NCBI GenBank assembly: GCA_033030425.1
Contig: JAUFSD010000013.1
Coordinates: forward strand, 930,001-994,000
Length of the DNA stretch: 64,000 bases
Source of the DNA: Verpa conica
Taxonomy: Eukaryota > Ascomycota > Pezizomycetes > Pezizales > Morchellaceae
Direction: 5' to 3'
A program made the position numbers and the translations under genes. How positions within the stretch are numbered: position 1 is the stretch's first letter; each line of letters begins with the position of its first letter. The notes under the pieces were generated by a model that worked only from the letters and a program-made list of their open reading frames with translations, was not told the origin of the DNA and searched no databases. Positions 6,681-64,000 of this stretch are shown in pieces.

Positions 6681-9540
6681 TTAATTCTCTTCCACAACAC
6701 CTCCATTCTCTGCAATCTCAATTTTCTTCTTCCTATCTGCCTTTAACCTATGTAGCGCAACCATATTCGTCTGCTTCGTTACTTTCTGGTTCATCCTCTC
6801 GATCTCCTCCTCCGCATTTGCCGCATCCTGTGTCGCATACTCGAGTACCAACCGTCTCCCGAGTAAGTGCGTGTCTTTTAGCGCATCCATCGCGTTCTCT
6901 GCCTCTCTGCTTGTTATAAACTCAGCAAATGCGAAACCCCTCGTAGTACCGCTAAACTTCTTCGGAACACGGACGGTGCGAAGGGTCCCGTAGTGCCCGA
7001 ACAGCGCACGAACGTCTTTCTTAGATGCCTCGAATGGTAGATTTTTGATGATGATTTTTGTTCGCTTGTCAGCTTCCTTCCTCTTAGTGTCTTCCTTCTT
7101 CCTTTCGGCTGCTGCGTCAAGTCCTTTGTGAGAGGCTTTGATGAGGAGTTTATGGCCTTCAAGGAGAAATCCGTCCATTGCTTGTCGTGCTGCGTCTGCT
7201 TGGGCTTTGGACCGGAATTCAACGAACCCGAAGCCCATTGATAAGACTTGCCTAGGTTTCTTGGGGTTTGTTTTTGTTTTGACACGTGCAGACATGAACC
7301 CATCGATAGGGCTAAACGTATCCGATAGTAATGAACTGGTAGTTGAGAAGTTAAGATTACGGACAAAGAGGGTTGCGGTGTCAGCTGTTGTGTCTTCCGG
7401 GCCAAGGAGGTCTCTAGCAGATGGTTTTGCATCTTTCGCATGCGTGATGGTAGTAGTGGTAGTAAGCTGCCCTGCATTTGGCTGCGCCTTCGCCGGGTCG
7501 AACTCGGTGGTGAAGAGACCCCGGGGAGCCTTTTCGAGGAATAGGACCGACTCTTTGAACCGTCGGTATGCTAGTCCTGCAAATGCGACTCTGGCAGCAG
7601 GGGCGGATAAGAACTCAGCGATTGCAGTTGTACCAGTGGGGGGCATAAGGACCCTCCCCAGTTGTCCAAACTCGGAGAGAATTTTCCGGAGTTCATCAAC
7701 CTTTGTACCATATGGGAAGTTCTTGATTAGGATAACCTTGTCATCTCTGTCCTTTTTATTGAAGGCTTCTAAATCAATCCCCTGAAGTCTAAAATATGCT
7801 TTCGTCTCTTGAATAACGTGTGTCTCTGCATGTGCTTGTCTTACGGCAGCATCAGAGCTCGTGGGATTCAACAAGTCCGCTTTCGAGACGCCCAAGCGGT
7901 CGGCAACGGAGGATATGACTGCATCAGCGTTCATGTACATGCTATTCCAATTAAACTGACTTGTTGCAGCACCAGCCTTCTTCTTTATCTCACGTTGTTT
8001 TTTGAGTGGAAGTTTGGAGAGGGCGTATTCATCGAGTCTGTTTTCGCGTTTCGGGGCCGCGGGGAGAATATGGAGAAGACGCCCTTGGAATATTTTGCTG
8101 TCAAGATGTTTGTAAGCCTCAATTGCGTCGATGGGATTGGTGTAGTGGATGTAAGCAAAGCCTTTGGGTGTATTGGTTTTGTTATCGATGGGGAGGTGAA
8201 CCTAGGAGTTATTAGTAACAATAAAGAAGAGTATAGCTGGAGTTAAAATTTATAAAAGGATATACATCTGACTCAATTGTATAAACAATATGTCAGAGTA
8301 AGGCCACCTATCAGATGTATTTATGAAAGGCGTAGAAAAAATCATTGGCGTTTAGCGGAAAGCTGAAACCCAAGTCTCACCTCTTCAAGATCACCATGCT
8401 CTATGAAATACTGGCGTAAATCATCCTCAGTAACAGAGTATGATAAATTCCTCAGGAAAAGTCTCCCACTCTTTGCGATTGTCTCGAATGCAGCTTCCTC
8501 TTCGGTTGTACCCTTTTCCTCCTCTGACTTTGCAGGATCTGTTATTTTTTCTTCAGTCCCGTTCCATTCTTCCGTTTCTATTTCTACGGCTACGACCTTT
8601 TTTTCTGTTTGTTTGGTAGTCTCGTTGTGCGTTGTCCTCGCAAGGTGAGAATCAACATCATCCGTCAAGTCCAACAAGCGGCTTGTCTTGGATCTCAACC
8701 AATCCGCATCTGAAATCAGTGCTATAGGTTCTGCTCCCTTTTCACCCCCGGTTTCTTTTTCCTCTGAAATTTCCTTCTCCTCATCCTCCTCCTCACTCTC
8801 AGCTTCCTTCATCTCCACATCTTCCTCCACATCCTCGCTCTTCCTCGCTTTGGCCGGGATACTCTCATATTCATCATCACTTTCCCCTACCTCTGCTACA
8901 GCAACTGTATCCACTGACACTGTAGTAGAACCCTGGATGAAGGAGGAGAGGTCTTCATTGGCCCAGGTTTTTGACTTTGAGACAGGTGCCATGACCTCGA
9001 GGAATTCCTTGAGCTTGGAATCATTTTCGGTAGCTGGTTCCTCGGCTCGTTTACGCTTCAGTGTATTTTCAAGGGATTTGGGGGTATCGGTGGGGAGCTG
9101 AGGTTCATATTTCCGCTTATAAGCTGTGGAGCCGGGAGTGTGCTTACTCCATGCTCGTGGGAGTTCCTTATCTGCAACCTACCCTCATTTCCATGTTAAT
9201 CCTAAACCCCTAACCCAGTGGAGAAAACATACAGGTCTGGCAATCTCGACCCAGATCCTCGACATTCTTATGAAAGACTTGTTGAAATACTTGACTGCCT
9301 TTTCAGCTTCCGCGGCAGTCTTGTAACCGACATAACCGATTCGTCTAGAGGGGATGAGTTTTGCATCGGTCACCGTGCCTTGCGCGGAGAAGTGAACGCG
9401 GAAATCCGATTCTGAGAATTTTGGAGGGAGTCCGCGGACGAAGATTCTTGTTGACCTGAAGTGTGTTAGATATTGAATTTATCACTGTAGGGGGTTGCAT
9501 GAGTAGTGGGGGGGAGGAGGGGATTGAGAGGAGCATACAT
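6681..9540 (-). CDS. MRD1: MRD1, multiple RNA-binding domain protein for pre-rRNA processing
   Basis: Four exons (9540-9539, 9455-9233, 9178-8381, 8201-6681) give 847 residues, close to known fungal MR​D1. Five RRMs are visible: about residues 5-75, 313-390, 496-566, 617-698 and 722-798. RNP1-like segments include RRIGYVGY, KGFAYIHY, MGFGFVEF and RGFAFAEF. A strongly acidic linker separates RRM1 and RRM2. MRD1 binds 35S pre-rRNA and U3 in the nucleolus and is needed for early 18S cleavages. The start codon is read as split AT|G by an 83-nt intron (9456-9538), giving MSTRIFVRGLPPKF; without that splice there is no ATG in frame ahead of RRM1. It diverges from the dynein light chain gene. Confidence 0.93.
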
Positions 9541-11499: not shown

Positions 11500-14400
11500 A
11501 TGGCTGACGCCGACTACAATGATGATATTGCTGCGGAGGACTGCTGGCAAGGTATCTCCTAAGAATTCCCCTGTACATTTCTTTTTTCCAAAAGGAACAT
11601 TGATTGAACACCAGAAATAAAAAATCTCCAGTCATTTCCGCCTTCTTTGACCAGAAGGGTCTCGTGTCTCAGCAGCTCGATTCCTTCGACGAATTTGTTG
11701 GTACGACTATGGTTGAGATGATTGAGGAGGATAGCGTCCTCACGCTTGATCAGAATACCCCACAGAGTGAGGATGGGATCGTGTTACGTCGCTATGAGAT
11801 CAATTTCGGTCCCTGCTTCCTGTCGCGGCCAACCATGACTGAAGGTGATGGGTCGACGCAGCCCATGCTGCCACAAGAGGCGAGGTTGAGGAATCTGACA
11901 TATTCGGCGCCAATGTACTGCGAGCTTAAGAAGAAGGTCATGGTGGCGAGAGAGGTGGAGGTGGGGAGCGATGAAGAGGAGGATGAAGAGGAGGGTGCAG
12001 CCCCGAAGGAGCGGATACGGTATGAGTGGGAGATTGAGGAGGAGGATATGGAGCCGACAAAGGTTTTTATAGGGAAAATGCCGGTAATGCTGAAGAGTCA
12101 CTACTGCATCCTGAAGGACTTTGCGGAAGAGGAGCTATACTCGTTGAATGAGTGTCCTTATGATCAGGGGGGTTACTTCGTCATCAACGGCTCAGAGAAG
12201 GTCCTTATTGCACAGGAAAGGTCTGCAGCGAATATTGTGCAGGTTTTTAAGAAGGCATTGCCATCACCAACACCTTACGTTGCCGAAATTAGGTCAGCTG
12301 TGGAGAAGGGGAGTCGATTGATCTCAAGTATGCAGATTAAGCTGTACTCAAAGGGGGAGGCGCGAGGTGGCTACAATGCGACGATTAAGAGTACGTTACC
12401 ATATATCAAGAGTGATATTCCAATCGTTATCGTATTCCGAGCTCTCGGGGTCGTGTCAGATGAAGATATCCTTAATCACGTTTGCTATGATCGCAATGAC
12501 ACTCAGATGCTCGAGATGATGAAGCCCTGTATCGAGGAAGCCTTCGTCATTCAGGATCGAGAGGTTGCTCTGGACTTCATCGGGAAGCGTGGTAGTTCCC
12601 AAGGTATCAACAAGGAAAAGCGTATCCGGTATGCAAGAGACATTATGCAGAAGGAGCTACTCCCACATATCTCACAGAGTGAAGGAAGCGAGACGAGGAA
12701 GGCTTTCTTTTTGGGGTATATGGTCCATCGGATGCTTCAGTGCGCTTTGGAGCGGCGGGAGGTCGATGATAGGGATCATTTCGGGAAGAAGAGGCTTGAT
12801 CTTGCGGGGCCATTGCTGGCGGGATTGTTTAGAACACTGTGGAAAAAGCTTACTAAGGATGTCTACAAGTATTTGGAAAAGTGTGTGGAGACAAGCAAGG
12901 ACTTTAATCTTACGCTGGCGGTCAAGAGTAATACTATTACCAATGGGTTGAAGTATTCACTTGCGACTGGTAATTGGGGGGAACAGAAGAAAGCGGCAAG
13001 CTCAAAAGCGGGTGTGTCACAGGTGCTAAATAGGTATACTTTTGCGTCTACACTATCTCATTTGCGACGAACAAACACACCTATCGGACGTGATGGTAAA
13101 ATTGCAAAGCCTCGACAGCTCCATAATACCCATTGGGGACTCGTGTGTCCTGCCGAAACACCCGAAGGTCAGGCTTGTGGTCTTGTCAAGAACTTGTCAC
13201 TCATGTCCTACATCACCATCGGAACCCCCGGGTACCCGCTCGTCGACTTTTTGTCGTCTAACGACATGGAACTCCTCGAGGAGTACGAACCTCAGAGATC
13301 TCCCAACGCAACCAAAGTCTTCGTCAACGGTGTCTGGGTCGGAACCCACCGCGACCCCCTTATGCTCCACAAAGTCGTCCAGGACGTCCGTCGCCAAGGT
13401 GTTGTCAATCATGAGGTTTCCATCATTCGTGATATTCGTGATCGCGAGTTTAAGATATTCACTGATGCTGGTCGTGTGTGTCGTCCGTTATTCGTCATTG
13501 ACAACGATCCCCGTAGTGAACGGCGGGGGCAGTTGGTGCTGCAGAAAGAACACATCGAGAAGCTGGAGGATGACCATGCCATACCAGTGGAGGATAGGTT
13601 TGGGTGGGAGGGGCTACTGTTTTCGGGAACCGTCGAGTATTTGGATGCTGAGGAGGAGGAGACAGTCATGATTGTTATGACGCCGGAGGATCTCGATATG
13701 AGTAGGCAGATGCAGCTAGGATATGAGGAGCCAAAGGATGAGTTTAGCGCCAAGAGAGTCAAGGCGCCAATTAATCCTCATACAGCGCACACGTGGACAC
13801 ATTGCGAGATTCATCCAAGTATGATATTGGGGATTTGCGCAAGTATTATTCCATTTCCAGATCATAATCAGGTGAGTTTGAGTGGAACTACTAGTGGACG
13901 TATCCTGGGATATATGCTGATCTGGGCGGTAATAGTCTCCGCGTAATACTTATCAGTCTGCTATGGGTAAGCAAGCTATGGGTGTGTTCCTTACGAACTT
14001 TGCAGAACGTATGGATACTATGGCAAATATTCTGTACTACCCGCAAAAACCACTTGCTACGACGCGTTCGATGGAGTACTTGAAGTTTAGGGAACTTCCA
14101 GCTGGACAAAACGCCATTGTTGCGATTCTATGCTATTCTGGCTACAATCAGGAAGATTCTGTCATCATGAACCAGTCTTCGATCGATCGTGGCCTCTTCC
14201 GATCCCTCTTCTACCGTTCCTATATGGATCAGGAGAAACGCATCGGTATGCAAGTCGTTGAAGAGTTCGAGAAGCCGACCCGCGCAAACACACTCAAGCT
14301 GAAACACGGAACATACGACAAGCTTGACGAGGACGGACTTGTTGCTCCTGGAGTACGTGTATCAGGTGAAGACATTATTATTGGAAAGACGGCGCCCATT

Positions 14401-15398
14401 GCACCGGACGTGGATGAGATGGGCCAGCGCCAAAAGTTTCACACAAAACGTGATGTGTCAACCCCACTGAGAAGTACAGAGAACGGTATCGTCGACCAAG
14501 TCATGCTCACTACCAACGCGGAGGGCCTCAAGTTCGTCAAGGTCCGCATGCGGACAACCAAAATTCCGCAGATTGGAGACAAGTTTGCATCGCGACATGG
14601 TCAAAAGGGTACAGTCGGTATTACATACCGACAAGAAGACATGCCGTTCACCTGTGAGGGTATCGTGCCAGATCTTATCATTAACCCCCATGCTATTCCA
14701 TCTCGTATGACGATTGCCCATTTGATTGAATGCCAGCTTTCAAAGGTTTCTTCTCTCCGCGGGTTTGAAGGCGATGCTACTCCATTCACGGATGTCACAG
14801 TCGAATCCGTTTCCACACTCCTTCGGCAAAACGGCTACCAAAGTCGTGGGTTCGAGGTCATGTACAATGGGTATACTGGTCGTAAGTTGGTTTGCCAAGT
14901 ATTCTTGGGACCGACTTATTATCAGAGACTTCGACATATGGTGGATGATAAGATTCACGCGAGAGCTAGAGGCCCTGTGCAGATTTTGACCAGACAGCCG
15001 GTAGAAGGTAGGGCGAGAGATGGAGGTTTGCGTTTCGGAGAGATGGAGAGAGATTGTATGATTGCTCATGGCGCTAGTGCATTTTTGAAGGAGAGGTTGT
15101 TTGAGGTCAGCGACGCGTTTAGAGTACATATTTGTGATCTATGTGGGTTGATGACACCAATTGCGTAAGTTTTCTATCCTTTTTTTGTTCTTTTTTCTGT
15201 TCTGTGGAGGTATGTACTAACGAGAGAAATAGAAACTTGAAAAAGAATCTCTTTGAGTGTAGGCCATGTAAGAATAAGACCAAGATCTCGCAGATTCACC
15301 TTCCATATGCTGCAAAGCTCCTCTTCCAGGAGCTGGCGAGTATGAATATTGCGGCGAGAATGTTTAGTCAGAGGAGTGGGGTTAGTGTTAGGAACTAG
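11500..15398 (+). CDS. RPB2: RNA polymerase II second-largest subunit RPB2
   Basis: Four exons (11500-11551, 11632-13871, 13957-15164, 15233-15398) give 1221 residues, standard for RPB2. Key motifs: an N-terminal CWQVISAFF start, the fork-loop region [30 protein letters not shown] of the active-site side, [15 protein letters not shown] of the hybrid-binding domain, and the C-terminal zinc ribbon CDLC...CRPC. It forms half of the active-centre cleft of Pol II in the nucleus. The last intron has a textbook TACTAAC branch site. No defect is seen. This gene is a standard marker for identifying the fungus. Confidence 0.97.
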
Positions 15399-34223: not shown

Positions 34224-35856
34224 TCAACCTGGCAGTGACCCACCTCCGGAACCAGGTGGAGGTATCGAAACAACACCTGAATTTTGATTGCGTTTTTTTT
34301 CTTTTCTGGAAATAAGAGTCAGCCTTTTACTCGAGGATAATTTATAGAGCACAGAACAAGACATACTTTGCCCATCTTAGCCCGCAAGCGTTGCATAGTG
34401 TTTTCGGGCCTTTGGGACCTTTCCTCCACTCTGGACTATCTAAAGTGCCACAATCCGTGCACACATACTCATCTGCAATCTTCTGCTTCTTCTTCTTCTC
34501 TGAAGTATGACGACTCTCTTTATCAATTGGTATTGGGACACCGGCATCTCCACGGATTAGAGCCGGAGATGTATCACCCGTACTAATGCCCTTGGATCGT
34601 TCTCCTTCCCGATATCGTAACCCAGTCAACATCTCGATAGTATCCATATGGGTTACTCCATCAAACCGAGCCATCTTATCCCGGATACTATCAGTTTTTG
34701 CAAGATTCGACTGCTCCATGCGATCTAGGTTTTGCCGAGTTAGAGCTGCAGATGTTTGTTGTTGTGTGGGTTTTGCAGGTGGGGGCATAGCGTCAGACCC
34801 ATTGGGTGTTTGGGCTGTGGTCATTGGTGTATCATTCCCTACATTGGAAGTCATACTACTTCCAGCAGTCCCACTATCTGTTCGTGTTCCGTTGGGATAT
34901 TGTTGTCTCTGTCGTTGTTGTTGTTGGTGTTCTTCATACTCTTCTTTTCTCAGCTCACTTATCCTTTTTACCAGCCGCTCGTTTTCGATTTTATGTTCCA
35001 AGAAAGAATCCAGAAGGGCGGCGTTTCGTGTAGGATATGGTCGAGACATCATGAAGAACCCCTTGCACACTGATTGAATAGCTGAAGGTCCAAATTGAGG
35101 GGCCTCGCCAATATGAGGGTGACCGTTTGTCTCGAAAATCGCATAAGCTCCATCGGTCTTTTGAAATCTATAGAATAATCGCAAAGGTTGTCCAGTGGCT
35201 ATCGACTCGTTAAATTCTCGCACAAACCTTCAAAGTACGTTAGTGACTTTACACCTAGTGAGTTGCGTGAGAAGGTAAACGTACAGCCCTGAATCATCCG
35301 GGTGAATAAACTCGGTAATGAATTTCCCCATCAACTCCTCGGGATCGAATCCCGTTAAAGATTTTGCAGACGGTGATGCATAGACTATTTTTCCGGTGGG
35401 TGAGAGAATGTGCAGGAAGTCCTGTAGCTCTTCTAAGATACGTTGCGACCAGTTCCTCCTTTTTGTGAATTCAGTCAAGGTACTGCCACCCCCGAGATTC
35501 CCATACTCATTCATCATTGAAGTTGGTGGAGCAGATGCTGACATTGAGCTGAATTGGTCGCCACATAGTTGAGGGTCCAGCGGCATCCCATCGTCCGGCG
35601 ACATATTCATAGACATCATCATTCCTGGGTCTAAAATTGAGTTGACGTGGTTGTGGTCTCCCAACAAGCCTCCAGCAGCCATGGCCTGTTGGGCAGCAGC
35701 GAGGGACGAAATCTGCATGTTCTGGAGTTGACCATTGACACCATTTACAAGGGGCATACCACCCCCATTAAAAAGATGAGAATTTCTGGTGCCAACTATG
35801 CCACCCGGCATGTAGCTATGGGTGGGAGAGGACGATGAGGCGTGATTCATCATCAT
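34224..35856 (-). CDS. wc-2: white collar-2, PAS/GATA zinc-finger transcription factor
   Basis: Three exons (35856-35285, 35227-34367, 34305-34224) give 504 residues. A Met/Gly/Ser-rich N-terminus precedes one PAS domain (about 138-250: [34 protein letters not shown]-type core), a coiled-coil stretch with Gln runs, and a C-X2-C-X18-C-X2-C GATA finger at about 448-479, followed by a basic tail. That is exactly the WC-2 layout. WC-2 pairs with the flavin photoreceptor WC-1 through PAS domains to form the white-collar complex, which drives light-induced and circadian genes. The splice after GGG CT was chosen over a downstream GT because only it restores SGLFVREF. The last intron splits the codon just after the finger. 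Confidence 0.93.
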
Positions 35857-37781
35857 AGGGAATACTGTTGGGCGAAGGAGCAGTGGGAGCAGAGGTAGAG
35901 CAACCAGCCACAGAGAAAAATATAAAGATGGAGAGAACTGGGAGAAGAAGGTATGGGAGGACTAAAGGTAGGGAGGAGGCCCACGATGTCTACTAATAAG
36001 CTCTAGATGGAAGAATGTGGGACGGGACGGAGACGAGGAGGAGGGGTATGATGACGACAAGGAGCAGGTGAAGGAAGGGCACGGGTAGAGGGAGAATGAA
36101 GCAGACGAGCCGGAGGACAATGTCGACGACGACGACAACAACGACGGCGAAGGCGAGGAGGGGATAGACGAGCCAACGCGGGGCAGCATGGGACGAAGGA
36201 GGATCGTATCTACTTACATGTACTTGACCTACATGTATGTGGGTGTGTGCTCTACAGAGTGGAGGGGGGTGTCGAAGGCGGCATGGGGGGGAGATGGGTC
36301 AGTCGATAAGTCGCTGCCGGGATATCAGAACGTTAGCCAGGCGGAGAGTGGCCGCAGCAAAGGGAGAAGAAAAAAAAACAATCAACCAGCACACTCGTTA
36401 CAAGGCAATGTGAAGCGTGTGCGTGAATGCGTGAACAAAGCGATAGGGTGAGTAGGTAAGGTGCCTGAGTGGGTGAGAAAAGCGAACTGAGAGTGGACGA
36501 GTTGAATGTCGTGCCGCCGCTCTTTTCCCTCTGGAGTCTGGCTAACCCTTACTCCCTTGCAATTACTACATGTTCTCTTCTCCTCGGCGGCTTTCCCATG
36601 TCACTTTTTTCCTTCCTACGCCCCGTAGTCCTGCTTTATTTTATTATCTGTTTTACCCAGCCCATTCTCCTCTACATCTTTACATACATGTACATGTACA
36701 TATATCATGACCTTATGGTGCCAGTGACGGGTTGAAAGAGGTGTGACTCCGTCAGCCAAGTCAGGTTTACTCTATGGCTAGCTATGGGGGGGGGGACAGC
36801 GGTGCGGGTCTTCGCAGTACATAAAGGGGAAGTGAGGAAAAAAAAACTGGCTCATTGCAAAATCTGGTAGCGAGGCAGACGGCGTGTGCTTCTACCACCA
36901 GTGCATACAGTACATCACGAGTTTGCGTGTGGTCGTGTTGGTCGTCAGTATGAAACATAATTTACATACATGTAGTGGGTTGGTTAGCATATAAAATAAC
37001 GTCCAAACTTCTGGAGCGGTCGAAAGTAGTTAGCTGCCGTTACAGCACCGCAATCGAATTACCTAGCAGATCTTGTCCCCCATAAGCTATATTCTGGCCC
37101 AAGTGTACATATCGTTGGCTCGGTACCTAACGGAGTACGCCCAGACTTTTATATCCTACACAGCAACACGACAGCTGAGGGGAAGGGGAACGTAAGAATG
37201 CCTCCGGAAATGACGTGTGGGTAGTAAAATGTCAGATTTTAAAAAAATTCTAGGATTAATCACATCTGTATCTATCATACCCTCATCAATCAATTGCATG
37301 GGCAAAACAGAGCTGGGTCGTATGTCTGTGAGATCATTTTTTTGGCTGCCCTGGCCCGGGGAAAGTGCTTTTTACCGTAAACCGTGGCACTACATATCAC
37401 ATCCCAATACTAAAGCGGCAGTGACATGTAGAGAGACTGACTGACAGTGAGCAGCAAAAATATGTAATAGAATCAAAGAAAAATATATATGAGTAATGAC
37501 AAACAATTGTGTATTTTATGAATATTGGATTTTTAGGTTATTTGGGTGTGATTGATTTCTCAGGTAACCATCACTTCGTCATCCCGTCCTGCCAAGCCGG
37601 CCGACGTCAAATTGGTTTTGAACGCGTTTCCCAGTGTCTCGTCGCGTAACTGCAAGCCCCAACTGCTACCACTCATCCAGCCTCTCGGAACGATCTAGGA
37701 ACACCCCTCGTTGCCAATACCCACTCCCAGGAGAAGCGACTGTATCTTATATTACCGGTTACTGAGATCCTTATCAGGAAA
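35857..37781. promoter_or_regulatory. divergent upstream region WC-2 / RAD50
   Basis: A 1.9-kb spacer between divergent genes. The 300 bp next to WC-2 are CT-rich on the WC-2 coding strand, probably a leader or core promoter. The perfect palindrome TACATGTA occurs five times here: 36215-36222, 36230-36237, 36685-36692, 36691-36698 and 36967-36974. No protein gene is supported. Confidence 0.5.
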
Positions 37782-40700
37782 ATGTATGATCTTAGGTCCA
37801 CTGCTTGTTCTTCCATCTGCTAACCTTTGCTCCTAGGTGTAAGTCGTGTTTGCCCTTGTAGCCCATCAGAATTTAAATGGCCAAACAAAGAGTTCAGGGC
37901 TGACTTTTTTTGGGTTTCCCCAGCGCGGATTGATAAACTTGCAATCCTTGGGTAAGCTACCCTCCACCTCCTCTTGGCTGATAGAGCTCATCAGTACCAC
38001 ATTTCTAGTGTTCGTTCGTTCGACAACACCCGCAGCGAGACCATACAATTTACTGCACCGTTGACTTTAATCGTTGGTTATAATGGCTCCGGAAAAACTG
38101 TATGTAGTAGGGAAAAAAATATTGTTTTGCACAAGAGTTCACCCGCTGATGTCCCTATCCAGACAATTATCGAATGTCTCAAGTATGTAACTACTGGTGA
38201 TTTACCTCCCAATAGCAAGGGAGGTGCCTTTATCCATGATCCAAAGGTTGCCTACTCCATTATGACCTTCTATAATCAGTCACAGCGCTGATATATGTAC
38301 GCTCCACGAAAAAAAGATATGTGGAGAAAAGGAGGTTCTCGCTCAAGTAAAGCTTTCATTCAATTCAACCAAAGATGTCAAGATGGTCTGTACTCGCTCG
38401 CTGCAGCTCACCGTGAAAAAAACTACCCGACATCAGAAGGCATTAGAAGGCCAGTTACTGGTAACTAGCAACGGCGAGCGCTCAACAATTAGTTCACGGT
38501 GTGCTGAGCTTGACACACTAATGCCTCAATATCTGGGTGTATCAAAAGCAGTGTTAGAGTATGTGATATTTTGTCACCAAGACGAGAGTCTTTGGCCAAT
38601 GAGTGAGCCTAGTGTGTTGAAGAAACGGTTCGATGAAATTTTTGAGGCACTGAAGTATACTAAAGCCATCGAAAATATCAAAGTTCTGAGGAAGAAGCAA
38701 AATGAGGAGCTTGGGAAGCTGAAAATTCTTCTTGAGCAATATCGAGTAGACAAAGATCGCGGTGAGAAGGTAAACATTTATTCTGGTGTTTAGCCATATT
38801 AGTCTCATTAAACTAATATTTGATTAGGCAAAACGTCGCTCTGATGAGCTCCATGAAGAAATTGAAGCAATGAGGGTAGAAGTTACTCAACTAAGTCAGA
38901 TGATGTCCGAAAATTCTCATGAGCGGGAGGAGCTCTTTAGCAAAGCCAAAGGATTCGAAACGATAATTGCTACTCTTCAGGCCAAGAGACAGGAAGCTCG
39001 AACCATGGAAACACACATAGTGGAGCTTTCAAACCATCTTACTCACCTCGAGGAGTCAGATTCAGATCTCCAACGAATGCAGCAAGAGTATGGCACAAGG
39101 ATGAAAACGTATCAGGACCATATTAATACTAAAAGAACTACTTACGTTGGAGCAGTCGGAGCGTTGGAGAGGGTTAGAGACCGCCTCTCAACAAAGCTCA
39201 AAGAGGAAGGTAGGATTCAAGCGGAGCATACGGTATAAATACCCAATGATAGATCTAGCTATTACTAGATCTACCTTATAGTTTATATCACTAAGGATAA
39301 CCTAGGCGTTTGAGAACCAACTTCGTGAACGTGAGGCTTTAATCAAAGAAATTAGCCGTCGACATGGAATCAAGGGGTTTGACAATGAGTTGGATGATTC
39401 TCAAATCCAGTCTTTCATGACCAAAGTCTCAAGGTTATCACGCGATCAAAATTTACAACTCGAACGCATTAAAGTGAGGCTTACTTCCGTTCGTTTCAAG
39501 GTGCTAGCTGCTGACTTCCACAGCGCGAGAACGGGGAAGAGCTAAGAAATTCCCAAGAGAAGTTAAATCAGATTACTAGCAAACGCTCATCACTTCAACA
39601 AAAGAAAGAATATGCCAGGGCAGAAATCAAGTCTTCTGACCAGAGAGCAGGTGCCCTACAACGTGAGCTTGAGGTCATAGGGGTCAACGAAGGACAGGAA
39701 TCCATTCTGAAATCAAAACTCGATGACAAGGAACAACGCCTAGCCAAGGCAAAGAGGGACCATGAAACTGCGCAATACGACGATCGCACTGAGAAAGAGA
39801 ATGCCAGGTTAAGGAGTGTGGAAGATAAGTTAGATATTGTTACAACAGAACTTGCTAAAGTGACCCGACAAGCAGACGAGAGAGCAAGGTTAGGCTTTGT
39901 AAAGAAAGAACTAGAGACTAGAAGGAAGGCGCTGGATAGTCTGTGAGTTCTATGGTAGCCCTACATTAGCATATTGTCCCGTTAATCCATTTTAGGACCA
40001 TCGCCAATAAAGACAAGATCAATAAATTTGTTCATACAAAATGGTCTGCAGACTCTGTTGAGCGGGAATTGCAAATAGTTCTTCAGTAAGTATTATCAAG
40101 TCAGTGATCAAAAATCCTAGACACTGATATTACCGAGGGACCGAGATGAGGAGATCGCAGAAGCTAGACGACAGCGGGATGGCGTCAATCAAGAATTGTC
40201 ACAAGTCGAGACTAAGATTAATCTAATCCGGGACTCACTTAAAAAAAAGAATAAGGAGGCAAAAGGTTAGCTTGATTTTTTTATGAAATTTTATAGTAGG
40301 TGTTAATATACTACAGAATGTGAGGCGGCTGTCCTAGAATCGTGGGTTCCAGACCCAGATGATGGTGATGCAAAAGATATCAGTGAATACCCTAAAGTGG
40401 CTTCTGTAATCGAGCATGATCTTCAAGCCCTCCGAGGGTAAGTTAAATATCATACCTCATTACAAGCTTAACTTAATATATTGCAGAGATTTAAAACACC
40501 TTGAATACATACAAGACTATTTTACCAAAGCACTATCAACTCTTCAAGAGTATAATGCCTGTATCATGTGTAAGAGGGGTTTTCACCAGAATGAGGTTAA
40601 AGAATTCGACGAAATGGTATGATATACGTATAATTTTCTCCTAATGCCGAATTCTTACTAGTTATATCTCGTTTAGATTAGAAAAAAACTCGGGAGCTAT

Positions 40701-42950
40701 TCGCGGGAAGCAACAGAGGAAAGCATCAAGGATGCAGAGTCTGACCTCAGATTTATCCGAGATGCCGCCCCTAGTTATGATTCCTATATTAGGTTAACTA
40801 GAACAGAGATTCCAGCTTTAAATGAAGACTTGGGAAAGTATAATATTCGTAAAGAACAATTAGTTGATGACTATAATCATGTAAGTATTATAGGATTTGA
40901 TGAGGGTTTAATTGAGGCTTACCTAGTTATAGCATGAAAAAGTGTTGAACGATTATATATCAAACAGATCAGTAGTTGAATCCTTGAAAGTCCCTGTCTC
41001 GGAGATTGCAAAATATATGAAGGAGATAGTCGACTACGAAAAGCAAGTCGAAGATGTCGCTGGCCAGTTGAAAGACATGGGAAGTGCTCGCACCATTGAA
41101 GAAATGCAGGACGAAATGCAGCAACTGAACGAGGAAGCAAAGGCCCTTAAACGTCTAATTGTTTCCCTAACTTCTGAGAAAGAGTTGTCTCGGCAGAAAA
41201 TCGGTGCCCTTGACAATCAAGTCAAAGAACACTATATGAAGCTCAACGAACTGAATTTCAAGCTCCAACAATCAAGAACGTTGGTAAGTAGAATTGACGA
41301 ATGTCGCGATAACAACCGGAACCAAAACACAGTAATCGAAGCGATAGATATGGAACTCAAGCAGCTCGCCCCGGAGTTGGCAGAGGCAGAGGCGCATGTG
41401 AATAATATCTTACGTGATGGCGCAGAGAAAGAGAATAAGCAGCAACGCGATGCCTCAAAGCTTGCTGAAAGCGATATGCAGCTGAACAGAGCGGACCAAG
41501 GAATAAAAAGCTACCTCAAGCTTGGTGGACCGGATCAGTTGGATAGATGTCGCCAGCAGGTCCAAACTCTAGAAACAGACATCAGAAAAGGTGAAGAGGA
41601 AGTAGCAAGAATTGGAGAAGAGGTCAACAACTTGGAGAAGGAATCAGCGAATGCACGTGCAACTGAGCGCAGTATTCAGGAAAATCTCAGATTCCGTGGA
41701 AACAAGAGGCAGTTAGAAGATTTAGTACGAGAAATTAAAGACCTCGAGAGTCGCAATACTGAGGCAGAACGGGATCGATTCCATCGAGATTTGCAAATAC
41801 TTGCAGATACACATACAAAACTATCCAATGAGGTATGTGATAAGACTTGCACTATAACGACAGCTTTACTGAAAAGGTTGTAGAAATCAGCGAAAGTAGG
41901 AGAGATGAGGTCGAAGGACAAGCAATTAGAGCAGTTGATTCAAGACTATTACACGGATTACGCCGACGCGAAAGGGAAATACAAAGAAACCTTGGCTAAG
42001 GTCCAGGTATGAAGTTCTCCCCCCTACCCAGTAGTTGATTTTAATAGCCGTATAGACAACTACAGGTGCCACCAACGACCTTGCAAAATATGGGACTGCG
42101 CTTGACAAGTACGTTCACCGTTAGAACTGAAATTATGTAGTTTTTGCTAACGTAGATTACCAGAGCTATTATGAAATATCATAGTTTAAAAATGGAGGAA
42201 ATAAATCGTATTATTGAAGAGCTCTGGAAGTCAACATACCGAGGCACTGATGTAGATACTATTCTCATCCGATCTGACACTGAAAGTGCTAAGGGCAACC
42301 GCTCCTATAACTATCGGGTAAGTCATTTATTCTTTACTGTCGTTTATCCTTGAAAGCTCTATTGAATTCGGTAATCTTTTTAGGTATGCATGGTGAAACA
42401 AGACGCAGAGATGGATATGCGGGGCCGATGTAGTGCAGGACAGAGGGTATTGGCATGTATTATCATTCGCCTTGCACTAGCCGAGTGCTTTGGTATCAAC
42501 TGTGGGGTATGTCCTAAACATTTTTTGTCTGAGTCAGAATTTTTTCTTGTGGCTAAAATCTTTATTTTACAGCTTATTGCACTAGACGAACCTACAACAA
42601 ATCTGGACAGTGACAATATCAGATCTCTTGCAAGGAGCTTGCATGAGATTATTAAGACCCGCCAAGCGCAATCAAATTTCCAGCTTATTGTAAGATTCCC
42701 CCATATATTCCTTCAAAGGGTTTATAAATTAGTAGGTTCCTAACACGTCGTAGGTTATTACTCATGATGAGGATTTCCTGAAAGAAATGCAGTGCCAAGA
42801 TTATTGCGATCATTACTACCGTATATCTAGGGATGAAAGGCAGAAGTCTATTATTGAGAAGTGAGTTTCAAAAACAATATATTCCCTTTTAATACGGTAC
42901 TGTAGATTAGCTAACTTCAAATTAGACAATCTATTGCTGAAGTCATATAA
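37782..42950 (+). CDS. RAD50: RAD50, ABC-ATPase of the Mre11-Rad50-Nbs1 complex
   Basis: About 22 exons join to about 1308 residues, normal for Rad50. The longest exons are 38317-38769, 38828-39232, 39524-39942 and 40933-41832; the last is 42926-42950. Motifs: [16 protein letters not shown] start, Walker [10 protein letters not shown]-loop [10 protein letters not shown], long coiled coils, the zinc-hook CIMC (near 40560), signature [11 protein letters not shown], Walker [13 protein letters not shown] and the H-loop VITHDEDF. It tethers and processes broken DNA ends in the nucleus. The preferred N-terminus uses AT (37782-37783), a 2-nt exon GT (37837-37838) and exon 37924-37951. A weaker alternative starts at 37786 with a poor GTCCAC donor. 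All other phases agree. Confidence 0.92.
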
Positions 42951-59539: not shown

Positions 59540-59619
59540 ACTCCCCAGGTCTAGATTTGCCCCAAATTGCAACACTTTAACTGGGAGAAAAACTCAAAAA
59601 CAGTTCTAAAAGAAAAAAA

Positions 59620-62600
59620 CCGGAGGAGGAGGAATCCACCCCGAAGAAAAAACAAGCGACGGAGCCAGTACACGGAGCATGTCCTATTGCCACCTTTGAT
59701 TTTTGTTTTGCTAATTATATAAAACGCTTTAAAGTATTGTTGGATACCGGAGCCACAGGGCCGGTTTTGAGTTCGCGTTTTGTTTCCTTATATAATGTCC
59801 CAAGGGTGGAAAGAGACGTCCCCGCCCGATTAATGGGATTCGATGGAAAAATGGCATCGGGCGCGGGACAAGCCTTTACATTACCTATACTAATGATAGA
59901 AGGCATGCACCAATCCGAAATATCCTTTGAGATTGCAGATACCCCGGCAGACTTTGATGCAATCCTACCAGCCTGGTGGATACAACAACACAATCCAGTG
60001 CTCCATTCTAACGGAAGACTTGAGTTCCGTGGTAAGAATTGTCTCCATGCTTGTACCGCTAATAAGCCGGTGGTAGTCTATGACGAGAGCGTGGCAGAAG
60101 ATCCCGAAGCCCAATCAATCGGAGCAGTTAGCCGTGAGTTGACCGAAAGGGAACAGCTGGAAATCCTAATACCTAAGGAATACCACGAGCTACTTGACGT
60201 GTTTTACCCGTCAAAGGCCGACGAGTTGCCCCCTCACCGCCCATATGACCATGTCATAGACCTGGATCCAACTGCAAAGCCTACTTGGGGTCCAGTGTAC
60301 AATCTATCGGCATTGGAGTTGGGTGTGTTGAAGGAATACTTGGAAAAAATGATCCGGCTAGGTAAGATCCGCCCCAGCAAGTTGCCTTACGGCGCGCCTA
60401 TATTATTTGTCAAGAAAAAAGACGGTAGCTTGCGACTTTGCGTCGACTACCAAGGGCTTAACAGGATAACTATTAAAAATAAGTATCCTTTGCCTCTTAT
60501 GGACGAGCTCAGAGATCGAGTATCCGGCTCTACCATTTTTTCGAAGATAGACCTGAAGGAGGGGTACAACCTCGTCAGGATCAAACAAGGGGACGAAGAG
60601 AAAACAGCTTTCAGAACCCGCTACGGACATTACGAGTACTTAGTAATGCTGTTTGGCATGGTGAACGCACCAGCAACATTCCAGAACATGATGAACGATA
60701 TCCTCAGAGAATACTTGGACCAAGGTATAGTAGTCTATTTTGACGACATCCTAATCTATAGCAAAACAGCAGAGGAACACATTCAATTAGTCAAAATTGT
60801 TCTCCAGAAGTTAAGGGAAAACAATCTGGTCGCCAATCCTAAAAAATCCTTTTTTAACCAGCAAAAAATCGAGTTCCTCGGCTATATGCTAGGTTCCGAA
60901 GGTGTCTCCATGGCCAACGACAAAATCACGTCAATTCTGGAATGGCGAGCTCCACAGAGCGTAAAAGATGTGCAGGCTTTCATGGGGTTTGCCAACTTTT
61001 ATAGAAGATTCATCCATAACTTCTCAGGGGTTTGTAAACCTATAACCGACTGTACCAGACAAGATAACGCTAAGAACTTCACGTGGTCACACGAGGCACA
61101 AGAGGCGTTCGATAAGCTCAAAAACCTCTTCACCTCAGCCCCTATTCTAGTTCACTTCGACCCTGATCGCCAGACGTACGTGGAAACGGACGCCAGCGAC
61201 TTTGCGATCGCAGCCATTCTGTCCCAGGAAATCGACACTAAGTTACACCCGGTTGTGAAGAATAGCGGAGTAACAGCTTAGGACGCAAGTCCTAATGGTA
61301 TAACTCTACAGGTACGATGCACAGAAAGAAGCATAAGGCCAGTGAATTGGTGGTAGCAACAGAATAAACTATTACTATAAAGAACAGGCAGGCGAGGATT
61401 CTGAGCATGTAATACCAAACAAGATAGCGAAGTAGATTGGTGTCTATGTCTAGAGAATTACAGTCCCAGAAAGAGGGAGAACGGCCTGCTATTTATACAG
61501 AAAAGTCCTTTATCCTCCAACCGAGATAACTATGTAAAAACCGAGGTGGGAACACCATTTGACCCTGAAAACCGTAACAAAGTAAAGGTAACCAAAAGAA
61601 ATGAGTAATACAATGCTTGTAAGCGAAATGGTGTGTTGAGTAAACATAAATGAGCGTAACAAAATATGACTCATAACAAATGGCGCAATACATGTAAGTA
61701 ATAAGGTATGCGATCTTTCGATAAACATTAGAAATTATGTAAAAATATAATAAATGTAAAAATGTATCAAAAAAACAATCAGTTCTGCCGTCGTAATGAA
61801 ATGTAGCAAATGGAGATAAAATGTTATACAATCAAGGAAAGACAGACTGAGAATCTCGAAAAAATAACACCGGTCGCTTTCTATTCCCGAAAACTAGTCC
61901 CGGCGGAAGTTAATTACGACGTTTGGGATAAGGAAATGTTAGCTATAGTGGTAGCATTCAAGCAGTGGAGGCAATACCTCGAAGGCGTTGGGTATATGGT
62001 AGTCGTTTACACCGATCACCATAACCTAGAGTACTTCTCTACCACTAAGCAACTCACGAGGCGACAGGCTCGATGGGCAGAAAACCTTGCCGAGTTCGAT
62101 TTCAAAATTATTTATCGACCCGGAACAAAAAACGGAAAGGCTGACACACTATCAAGGCGTTCGGAGTACCGCCTAGAAGAGGGGGGCACCACTGATAAAC
62201 AACCCGTGGAAATGTTCTTCAAATCTGGACAGCTCGAGTTAGGACCCGGAGAAGTGGAACTGGTATTGTCAGCCTCGCTTGCTGCCATGGAAATTGTCAA
62301 CTGGGACAAGGAGTTTTTGGGAAAAGTACGGCAGGCGGGGCTGGGAGACCTGAAATGGGTAGGAATTAAGGAAAAGGTTTTCAGGAAGGAGTCAGGAGCA
62401 GCGAAGGAATTCTCAGTGTACGACAACCTGGTATATTCCCAAAACAGACTTTATATACCAGCAAGCGACGCCCTCAAAATCGAGATCGCAGAGGCAGAAC
62501 ACGACTCTAAAGTTGCAGGACATTTTGGCCAGGATAAAATACTAGAACTAATCTCACGAAACTTCTACTGGCCTAACCTAGATCACTGGGTAGACGATTA

Positions 62601-62871
62601 TGTCCGTTCCTGCGACCACTGCCAACGCAACAAACCAAGCCGACACAGAAAGTACGGTAAATTGTTGCCTCTCGAAACACCACACTGTCCGTGGGAATCC
62701 GTGTCTATGGATTTCATTACGCAGTTACCTTTGTCTGAAGGAACGACACAGATATGGGTCGTCGTAGACAGGTTCACAAAGATGTCGCACTTTATTCCTC
62801 TGAAAGAATCAGCTACGGCTCAGGACCTAGCCAAAACCTTCCTGAGCCAAATTTGGCGCTATCATGGCTTA
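59620..62871 (+). pseudogene. gypsy pol (protease, RT, RNase H, integrase), interrupted
   Basis: Part one (to 61253): protease LLDTGATG near 59734; reverse transcriptase with KKKDGSLRLCVDYQGLN, FSKIDLKEGYN, FGMVNAPATFQNMMN and catalytic YFDD; then the RNase H start VETDASDFA. Part two resumes at 61870 as PVAFYSRKLVPAE and goes on to the RNase H end (ADTLSRR) and the integrase HHCC zinc finger (H...H...CDHC). The core begins at SMDFITQLP and stops at WRYHGL where the pogo element enters. Pol lies in a different frame from gag, as usual for elements using frameshifting. Removing the solo LTR and one CCGGT leaves one unbroken frame. Confidence 0.9.
61254..61869 (+). mobile_element. solo LTR (616 bp) inside the gypsy RNase H region
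   Basis: The insert starts TGTGAAG and ends AATAACA (TG...CA ends) and is flanked by the 5-mer CCGGT at 61249-61253 and 61870-61874. Excision of the insert plus one CCGGT restores the frame K-L-H-P-V-A-F-Y exactly. It contains a TATA-like CTATTTATAC near 61490 and no coding sequence. It is the remnant of a second LTR retrotransposon that recombined away its body. Strand is nominal. Confidence 0.9.
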
Positions 62872-64000
62872 CAGGGATTGATGGTGAAACCGCCCAGCAC
62901 CGGGATTCCAATCACGTGATTTCCCATACCTCAAAAAGGAAGGTGGAGGCTTTTAGGGTGCTAATAATCAAAAAAAATACTCTAAATCTTTCAAGCTGCC
63001 CTTGCTGCTTGTATTGCTATCCTCTGAATTATATACAATGACTTCCTCATCAAACTGGACGTGTTTAGCACTATTTCTACCCCCCATAAGCCCCCTACCC
63101 CTTGCTCTACTGCTTCCTCTACCTCTACCCCCCCCGCTGCCGTGGAATGGGACTATCGCCCTGATCTAGGCTAGGGGTGCTTAGGGGTGCAGGGCTACCA
63201 ATTGCAAGAGTTATTAGAGCGTTTCCACGCCCTCTTCCATCTCTAGCTCCTCTTCCTCTACCCCTTCCTCTACCACGTGCTGCTTGAGCTGCTTGCTTGG
63301 CTGCTTTCTCGGCTTCTTTTGCTTCTTTTGCTTCTCTCAACCTCACCACATCTTCTGCAGTGATAACTCTTGCTTTTGTAAGTCTCCTCCTATCATTGAT
63401 GATAGCAGTAGACCTATTAGCAACTGCTTTGCGGTAGGTTTTGTGCAAATGCTCGGCGATCTCTTTATCAGTGATAGACTGCTGCAAACCCTTATCCATC
63501 TTGCTGATAAGGGCCCGTAGCTTCTCTGCAGAAGCTGTATGACCTTTTACTAGGGCTAGGGCTTCTTTGGTTTGCGCTCAAGCAGTACGAGAGGTGCGGG
63601 GAGTCACGGGATTGAGGCTATCAGAGTCTTTAGAGTTGCTCTTATCCTCATCAGGCCTTAGAGAGTCTAGCACCTTCCTAGCGTTGATTGGGTGGGCGCC
63701 AGCTCTACTCCAAGCTGATATGATATTAGACTTTGTATAAGCCAGTTTCCGGGCTGGGAATAGGAGTCTAATAGGGCTTAGCACCAGTCTTTTGCTTGCA
63801 ACGGGGGGTAGAGAGATAGGGGGGTAGATTACTTGATAAACAGCCCTTTATTCACCTGGGTGCAGCCCTTCTTTATCTCGTCGTCAAGAGCGTTGCTATA
63901 ATACTTCTGCAAAGGGCTAAAAAGCCCTACGTCGAGAGGTTGCAAGATATGGGTTGAATTGGGGGGTAGGCATACGGGGAGGATTTTGTTCTTTAGGGCA
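62872..64000 (-). mobile_element. pogo-like DNA transposon (partial, runs off the right edge)
   Basis: The gypsy integrase is cut at a TA (62870-62871), after which the sequence begins CAGGGATTGATGG, a CAG-type end as in pogo/Tigger elements that target TA. The minus strand inside encodes the C-terminal part of a DDE_1-type transposase. About 250 bp of non-coding sequence separates the transposase stop from the element end. The other end and second TA lie beyond the window. Confidence 0.75.
63125..64000 (-). pseudogene. pogo/DDE_1 transposase, C-terminal part, with one nonsense codon
   Basis: From the right edge the minus strand reads LPPNSTHILQPLDVGLF, the conserved end of the DDE_1 catalytic core with its QPLD motif. 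A 65-nt GT-AG intron (63768-63832) joins in frame to LLFPARKLAYTKSNIISAW, which pogo-type transposases typically carry after the core. A coiled, charged tail follows with RGRGRG repeats, and a stop at 63125-63127. One in-frame TGA at 63578-63580 interrupts the tail (TA*AQTKEAL) and would be CGA before a C-to-T change. The N-terminal DNA-binding domain is outside the window. Confidence 0.82.

Follow-up and report, generated by a model that had tools for sequence, protein, structure and literature searches.

Recursive splicing at zero-length exons is a feature of large introns, in which an acceptor abuts a donor and the two sites are used in turn. Internal exons of minimal length have also been described: Arabidopsis APC11 possesses a 1-nt exon, for which successive intron removal via intron definition plus recursive splicing has been proposed (PMC4674806), a further 1-nt exon is present in Fusarium CYP621A, and exons of 2-5 bp in Arabidopsis, Drosophila and humans are cited in the same report (PMC12940212). 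Strict stwintrons consist of an external intron in which a donor, branch or acceptor element is split by an internal intron (PMC7138796, PMC6616335, PMC5639578, PMC8469720, PMC12403724). Disruption of the start codon by an intron is described as relatively rare; the main class of start-codon introns is located after the ATG in phase 0 (PMC1626468).

We analyzed a stretch of 64,000 nucleotides of Verpa conica DNA (the window; all positions refer to it), in which the RAD50 pre-mRNA is predicted to contain two short canonical major-class introns splitting AT^G and T^CG around a 2-nt GT exon and removed successively. We regard this reading as quite probable. While 1-nt exons and start-codon introns are both known, RAD50 is predicted to combine the two, with good support at the sequence level. 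Like APC11 and CYP621A, it would have an ultra-short, frame-keeping internal exon between two introns that is missed by annotation; unlike their 1-nt exons, which were shown by cDNA or reads, the RAD50 exon has 2 nt, completes the start codon and is predicted from DNA alone (PMC4674806, PMC12940212). As in the start-codon introns described in PMC1626468, a conserved gene carries an intron at its start codon, but here the codon itself is split and its last base is placed on the 2-nt exon. Further parallels are [D]-type stwintrons of fungi and the 'stwintrons sensu lato' of Lipomyces, which share with RAD50 the two close short U2 introns, the phase-1 position, the occurrence in Ascomycota and, probably, the consecutive excision (PMC7138796, PMC6616335, PMC5639578, PMC8469720, PMC12403724).

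RAD50 gene and its N-terminus

The window encodes RNA-recognition motifs (6684-9178, -; two adjacent open frames, apparently one intron-split gene), a nuclear RNA polymerase second-largest subunit with Rpb2 domains 1-7 (11604-15168, +; its two open frames overlap and are presumably connected through an intron), a GATA zinc finger protein (34345-35229, -; upstream of RAD50) and a retrotransposon with reverse transcriptase, RNase H and integrase domains across two open frames (59581-62919, +).

RAD50 is complete (37782-42950, +), and joining its 22 exons by hand across 21 introns yields an uninterrupted protein of 1308 amino acids. The nearest protein among the matches listed is the RAD50 model of Morchella importuna (83% identity over the full length); Tuber melanosporum RAD50 is the second (66% identity), followed by other Pezizomycetes. 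These identities place the source in the Pezizomycetes, probably close to the Morchellaceae. The original assignment of the gene to RAD50 is supported. All the sequence pieces on which the original prediction was built are present where it had placed them. A 5' leader (37600-37781, +) precedes the start codon with 182 bases free of ATG, the final part of which is homologous to an extension of the M. importuna model. The coding end of the first exon, placed by sequence and joins, is the AT of the start codon (37782-37783, +). It is followed by putative intron 1 (37784-37836, +; 53 nt; GTATGA...TGCTAAC...CCTAG), which cuts the start codon between bases 2 and 3, and by the candidate micro-exon GT (37837-37838, +; 2 nt), of which the G finishes ATG and the T begins the Ser codon TCG. 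Putative intron 2 (37839-37923, +; 85 nt; GTAAGT...GCTGAC...CCCCAG) lies in phase 1 in codon 2 and is longer than all of the other 19 RAD50 introns (49-73 nt). The third exon (37924-37951, +) reads CG CGG ATT GAT AAA CTT GCA ATC CTT GG, and the sequence from 37924 is CGCGGATTGAT. In the gene model, this exon is followed by an intron at 37952-38008 (+). The remaining coding region (38009-42950, +), for which homologues are available, comprises 19 exons, 18 introns and a terminal TAA. The junction of AT, GT and CG CGG gives ATG TCG CGG, and the predicted protein starts with MSRIDKL.

The exon from 37924 encodes ...RIDKLAILG, with no Met ahead of Walker A. Upstream of this exon, the unspliced frame is open as far as a stop at 37821 and contains no ATG. 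The start therefore has to be upstream, spliced to 37924 in phase 1. Comparison with homologues points to MS as the missing residues. In the four solved RAD50 chains with listed alignments, residues 1-2 are MS and stand opposite the predicted MS. We also compared 240 homologues, i.e., 120 listed of 2,093 from the full-length search and 120 listed of 568 from a search with an N-terminal fragment (where the top identity among the listed matches, 96% over 66% of the query, begins downstream of the start region). Met is located exactly two residues ahead of the conserved block in 91 of these 240 proteins and is followed by Ser (70), Ala (20) or Thr (1).

Many public models carry something else at this position. 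Among the 120 homologues listed of 2,093, 29 start exactly with MS, 5 have MS plus an extension, 44 possess another upstream exon, and 42 are without the conserved block as searched. In the 44 models with another upstream exon, codon 2 encodes A in 18 cases, S in 16, P in 6, T in 3 and E in 1, so that A/S/P/T is found in 43/44 cases (21% background, p about 3e-28), while the preceding residue is unconstrained (A/S/P/T in 11/44). All four residues are encoded by NCN codons, as results from a phase-1 intron followed by an exon starting with C, to which arbitrary upstream exons have been attached. The position of intron 2 thus looks old in Pezizomycotina, the group from which most of the named proteins listed come. 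The short first coding exon ahead of this position is often missed in annotation.

In the M. importuna model, MSRIDKL is preceded by an N-terminal extension of 59 residues. The last 28 residues of this extension match the translated leader of the window without gaps (22/28 identical, score 115; the best of 500 peptide shuffles scores 53). This homology ends at the Lys before the M. importuna Met, which corresponds to the position just ahead of ATG 37782, and MSRIDKL comes next. Note that the matching leader frame is in frame with the start in M. importuna, whereas in the window it is shifted by one base relative to the ATG of RAD50, a difference to be expected if the leader is untranslated. 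An earlier stretch of the extension fits a second leader frame best; its score of 44 is under the shuffled maximum of 53 and is suggestive only. The extension is therefore most likely a 5' leader annotated as coding. A protein search with the read-through frames of the leader gave no matches, and pattern searches for relatives' DNA gave 20 matches in viral contigs and 50 in genome contigs, with no relative among them.

Splice signals and chance controls

The donors were scored with a six-base matrix built from the other 19 RAD50 introns. GTATGA (intron 1) reaches 6.6 bits and GTAAGT (intron 2) 8.7 bits. The acceptors are modest (2.4 bits for intron 1 and 1.4 bits for intron 2; the other 19 introns range from -3.7 to 7.9 in leave-one-out scoring). 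A CTRAC branch site is present in both introns, CTAAC at 37820-37824 and CTGAC at 37900-37904, beginning 17 nt (intron 1) and 24 nt (intron 2) from the acceptor end. The candidate micro-exon is thus flanked on both sides by canonical GT-AG introns with branch sites. The two introns of the original proposal are supported as good canonical introns.

How often such an arrangement arises by chance depends on the strictness of the model. In the strict model the acceptor is fixed, ATGN is rebuilt, the middle exon has 1-3 nt, the donors are as good as those of RAD50 introns 1 and 2, and CTRAY is present in both introns. When the 300 upstream bases were dinucleotide-shuffled 20,000 times, no case was found. 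Scanning 300 bases upstream of every YAG site in the window on both strands (3,785 sites) gave a single case, the RAD50 site itself. In a loose model (donors of at least 3 bits, branch site not required), 22/20,000 shuffles and 20/3,785 YAG sites were positive. Together with the gene model and the homologue N-termini, the shuffle controls back the original proposal of an MSRIDKL start, a split start codon and a 2-nt exon, as a prediction.

We also searched the whole genome (45.8 Mb, 25 contigs) for close acceptor/donor pairs of the type CTAAC/YAG/GTAAGT with a gap of 0-3 nt. There were 20 matches including RAD50, which is no excess over the controls (29 matches for the reversed pattern, 27 and 20 for permuted donors). 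Intron 1 and intron 2 with short flanks matched only themselves in the genome at E <= 1 (such counts are lower bounds), and an introner or repeated-intron origin was rejected, as no similar copies were detected at this threshold. A scan of the window with Rfam at gathering thresholds gave no match.

Alternative readings of the RAD50 start

Translation could start elsewhere, with an upstream exon or a different ATG spliced directly to 37924. A candidate exon is 37518-37563 (MNIGFLGYLGVIDFSARIDKL; donor GTAACC), which would be joined via a 360-nt intron; the other candidate start is MILARIDKL, via a 128-nt intron. There are 28 single-intron in-frame models leading to the acceptor at 37923 (GT or GC donors, 36900-37889), the best of which has a donor of 6.35 bits on an eight-base matrix, near the 6.95 bits of intron 1 on the same scale, and upstream exons of such kind are present in 44 of the 120 public models listed. 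However, most of the upstream exons in the public models look unrelated to each other, as erroneous predictions would. Furthermore, intron lengths of 360 or 128 nt contrast with the 49-73 nt of the 19 others, and the homology of the M. importuna leader reaches ATG 37782. The exon at 37518-37563 with its 360-nt intron was rejected on account of this length, the absence of MS and the leader homology. The MILARIDKL model depends on the donor GTCCAC, which scores only -2.2 bits on the six-base matrix and which the original prediction had rightly called poor. Only the second ATG, at 37786, opens the RAD50 frame in this model (1310 aa), and ATG 37782 gives a 7-codon peptide; the MS start is missing, and this single intron was rejected as well. 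We consider a start elsewhere decidedly unlikely. The 5' end of a cDNA derived from the micro-exon model would carry ATGTCGCGG.

A single non-canonical AT-AG intron of 138 nt (37786-37923) after a contiguous ATGT exon would invoke one intron rather than two. In fact, ATGT is contiguous at 37782-37785, since intron 1 opens with the same two bases as the micro-exon, GT. The mRNA resulting from the AT-AG intron is identical letter for letter to the product of the micro-exon model. Mature mRNA can therefore not separate the two, and the original statement that MSRIDKL is rebuilt only by the three-piece join was wrong. Judged from its protein, the M. importuna model, in which ATGT is joined straight to CG, likewise appears to have an exon ending at ATGT. 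On the other hand, the donor ATGATC has -4.8 bits on the major-class matrix and differs from the ATATCC-type donor of minor-class AT introns, and the internal CTAAC, CCTAG and GTAAGT signals would be left unexplained. A U12-type intron was rejected on the donor ATGATC; a search of the genome for U12 RNA gave no match at E <= 1, a result without positive control, as 14/14 control genomes were also below the cut-off. A lone AT-AG intron appears very improbable to us.

Just as improbable is an assembly error in which two bases were lost. In the true locus, an ordinary donor, GTATGA, would then come after ATGT and open one ordinary intron of ~140 nt. As assembled, the locus reads ATGTATGATC. Loss of GT from a GTGT run would be a small error, and the M. 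importuna model is compatible with ATGT directly ahead of a donor. But it would then be by chance that the intron contains a branch site, an acceptor, GT and GTAAGT, all in the right places. We assessed this with a second control, in which the outer splice sites were kept and the middle was shuffled 50,000 times. A rescuing 2-nt exon appeared in 0/50,000 cases at the strength of the RAD50 site and in 6/50,000 with 3-bit donors plus branch sites, although the coincidence becomes commoner (562/50,000) if branch sites are not required. For a rescuing exon of any length up to 50 nt, the corresponding figures were 4/50,000 (strict) and 3,837/50,000 (without branch sites). The same two bases could also have been lost in evolution rather than in the assembly.

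Splicing order, origin and annotation

In the micro-exon model, the intron 1 acceptor and the intron 2 donor are too near for simultaneous use. Because two exonic bases leave too little room for both splice sites at once, the introns would most likely be excised sequentially by intron definition, and because each of them is complete alone, either order is possible. This retains one part of the original suggestion of stepwise, twin-intron-like splicing, namely the successive removal. The locus is, however, no strict stwintron: both introns are complete with two exonic bases between them, and each splice signal of intron 2, namely GTAAGT (37839-37844), CTGAC and CCCCAG, is unbroken, the donor included. 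Similarly, acceptor and donor follow each other and would be used in turn as at zero-length recursive exons, but here two bases, both needed for ATG T, remain between introns of only 53 and 85 nt.

If intron 1 were removed alone, the intermediate would read ...AAAATGTGTAAGTCG..., and if intron 2 were removed alone, it would read ...CTCCTAGGTCGCGG...; after both excisions, the mature start would read ...AAAATGTCGCGGATT... With intron 1 removed first, the junction would be ATGTGTAAGT, where GTAAGT (8.7 bits) would compete with a weak GTGTAA (1.9 bits). Six splice forms were translated, and in none but the fully spliced form does the first ATG open the RAD50 frame. A 13-codon frame results if both introns are kept or intron 2 alone is removed, and an 8-codon frame if intron 1 alone is removed; skipping of the micro-exon leads to the loss of the start codon and to a 14-codon out-of-frame peptide. 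It is conceivable, though we think it unlikely, that the two-step splicing of the start codon has been kept by selection in this fungal lineage as a gate; no RAD50 would then arise from incomplete splicing or micro-exon skipping, and recursive splicing would set the level of this DNA-repair protein.

Concerning the origin of the micro-exon, intron 2 is probably the older intron, and intron 1, or the displacement of a donor that created the micro-exon, would be the later event. Two histories are compatible with the locus. An intron of 53 nt may have been newly gained two bases ahead of the old donor. Alternatively, GT may have been lost from an old ATGT/GTATGA junction, which was then rescued by splice sites within the longer intron; this course resembles the stepwise splitting described as stwintronisation in Lipomyces (PMC7138796). 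The ATGT-CG join of M. importuna is more simply explained by an ordinary donor after ATGT; if so, only the lineage of the window would have the micro-exon.

If real, the RAD50 micro-exon is among the smallest exons; among the papers listed in the open-access literature searched, we noticed no other micro-exon completing a start codon. A micro-exon sharing its initial bases with the intron upstream of it may also be disguised in transcript data, as RNA-seq aligners can report one non-canonical junction in place of two introns. For RAD50, the expected disguise would be a single gap at 37786-37923 with AT-AG ends. If the gate reading were true, such micro-exons may be hidden in RNA-seq more widely as 'non-canonical AT-AG junctions'. 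Finally, if the micro-exon is real, it offers a reason for the frequent misannotation of the RAD50 N-terminus in Pezizomycotina: a tiny first coding exon ahead of an old phase-1 intron.
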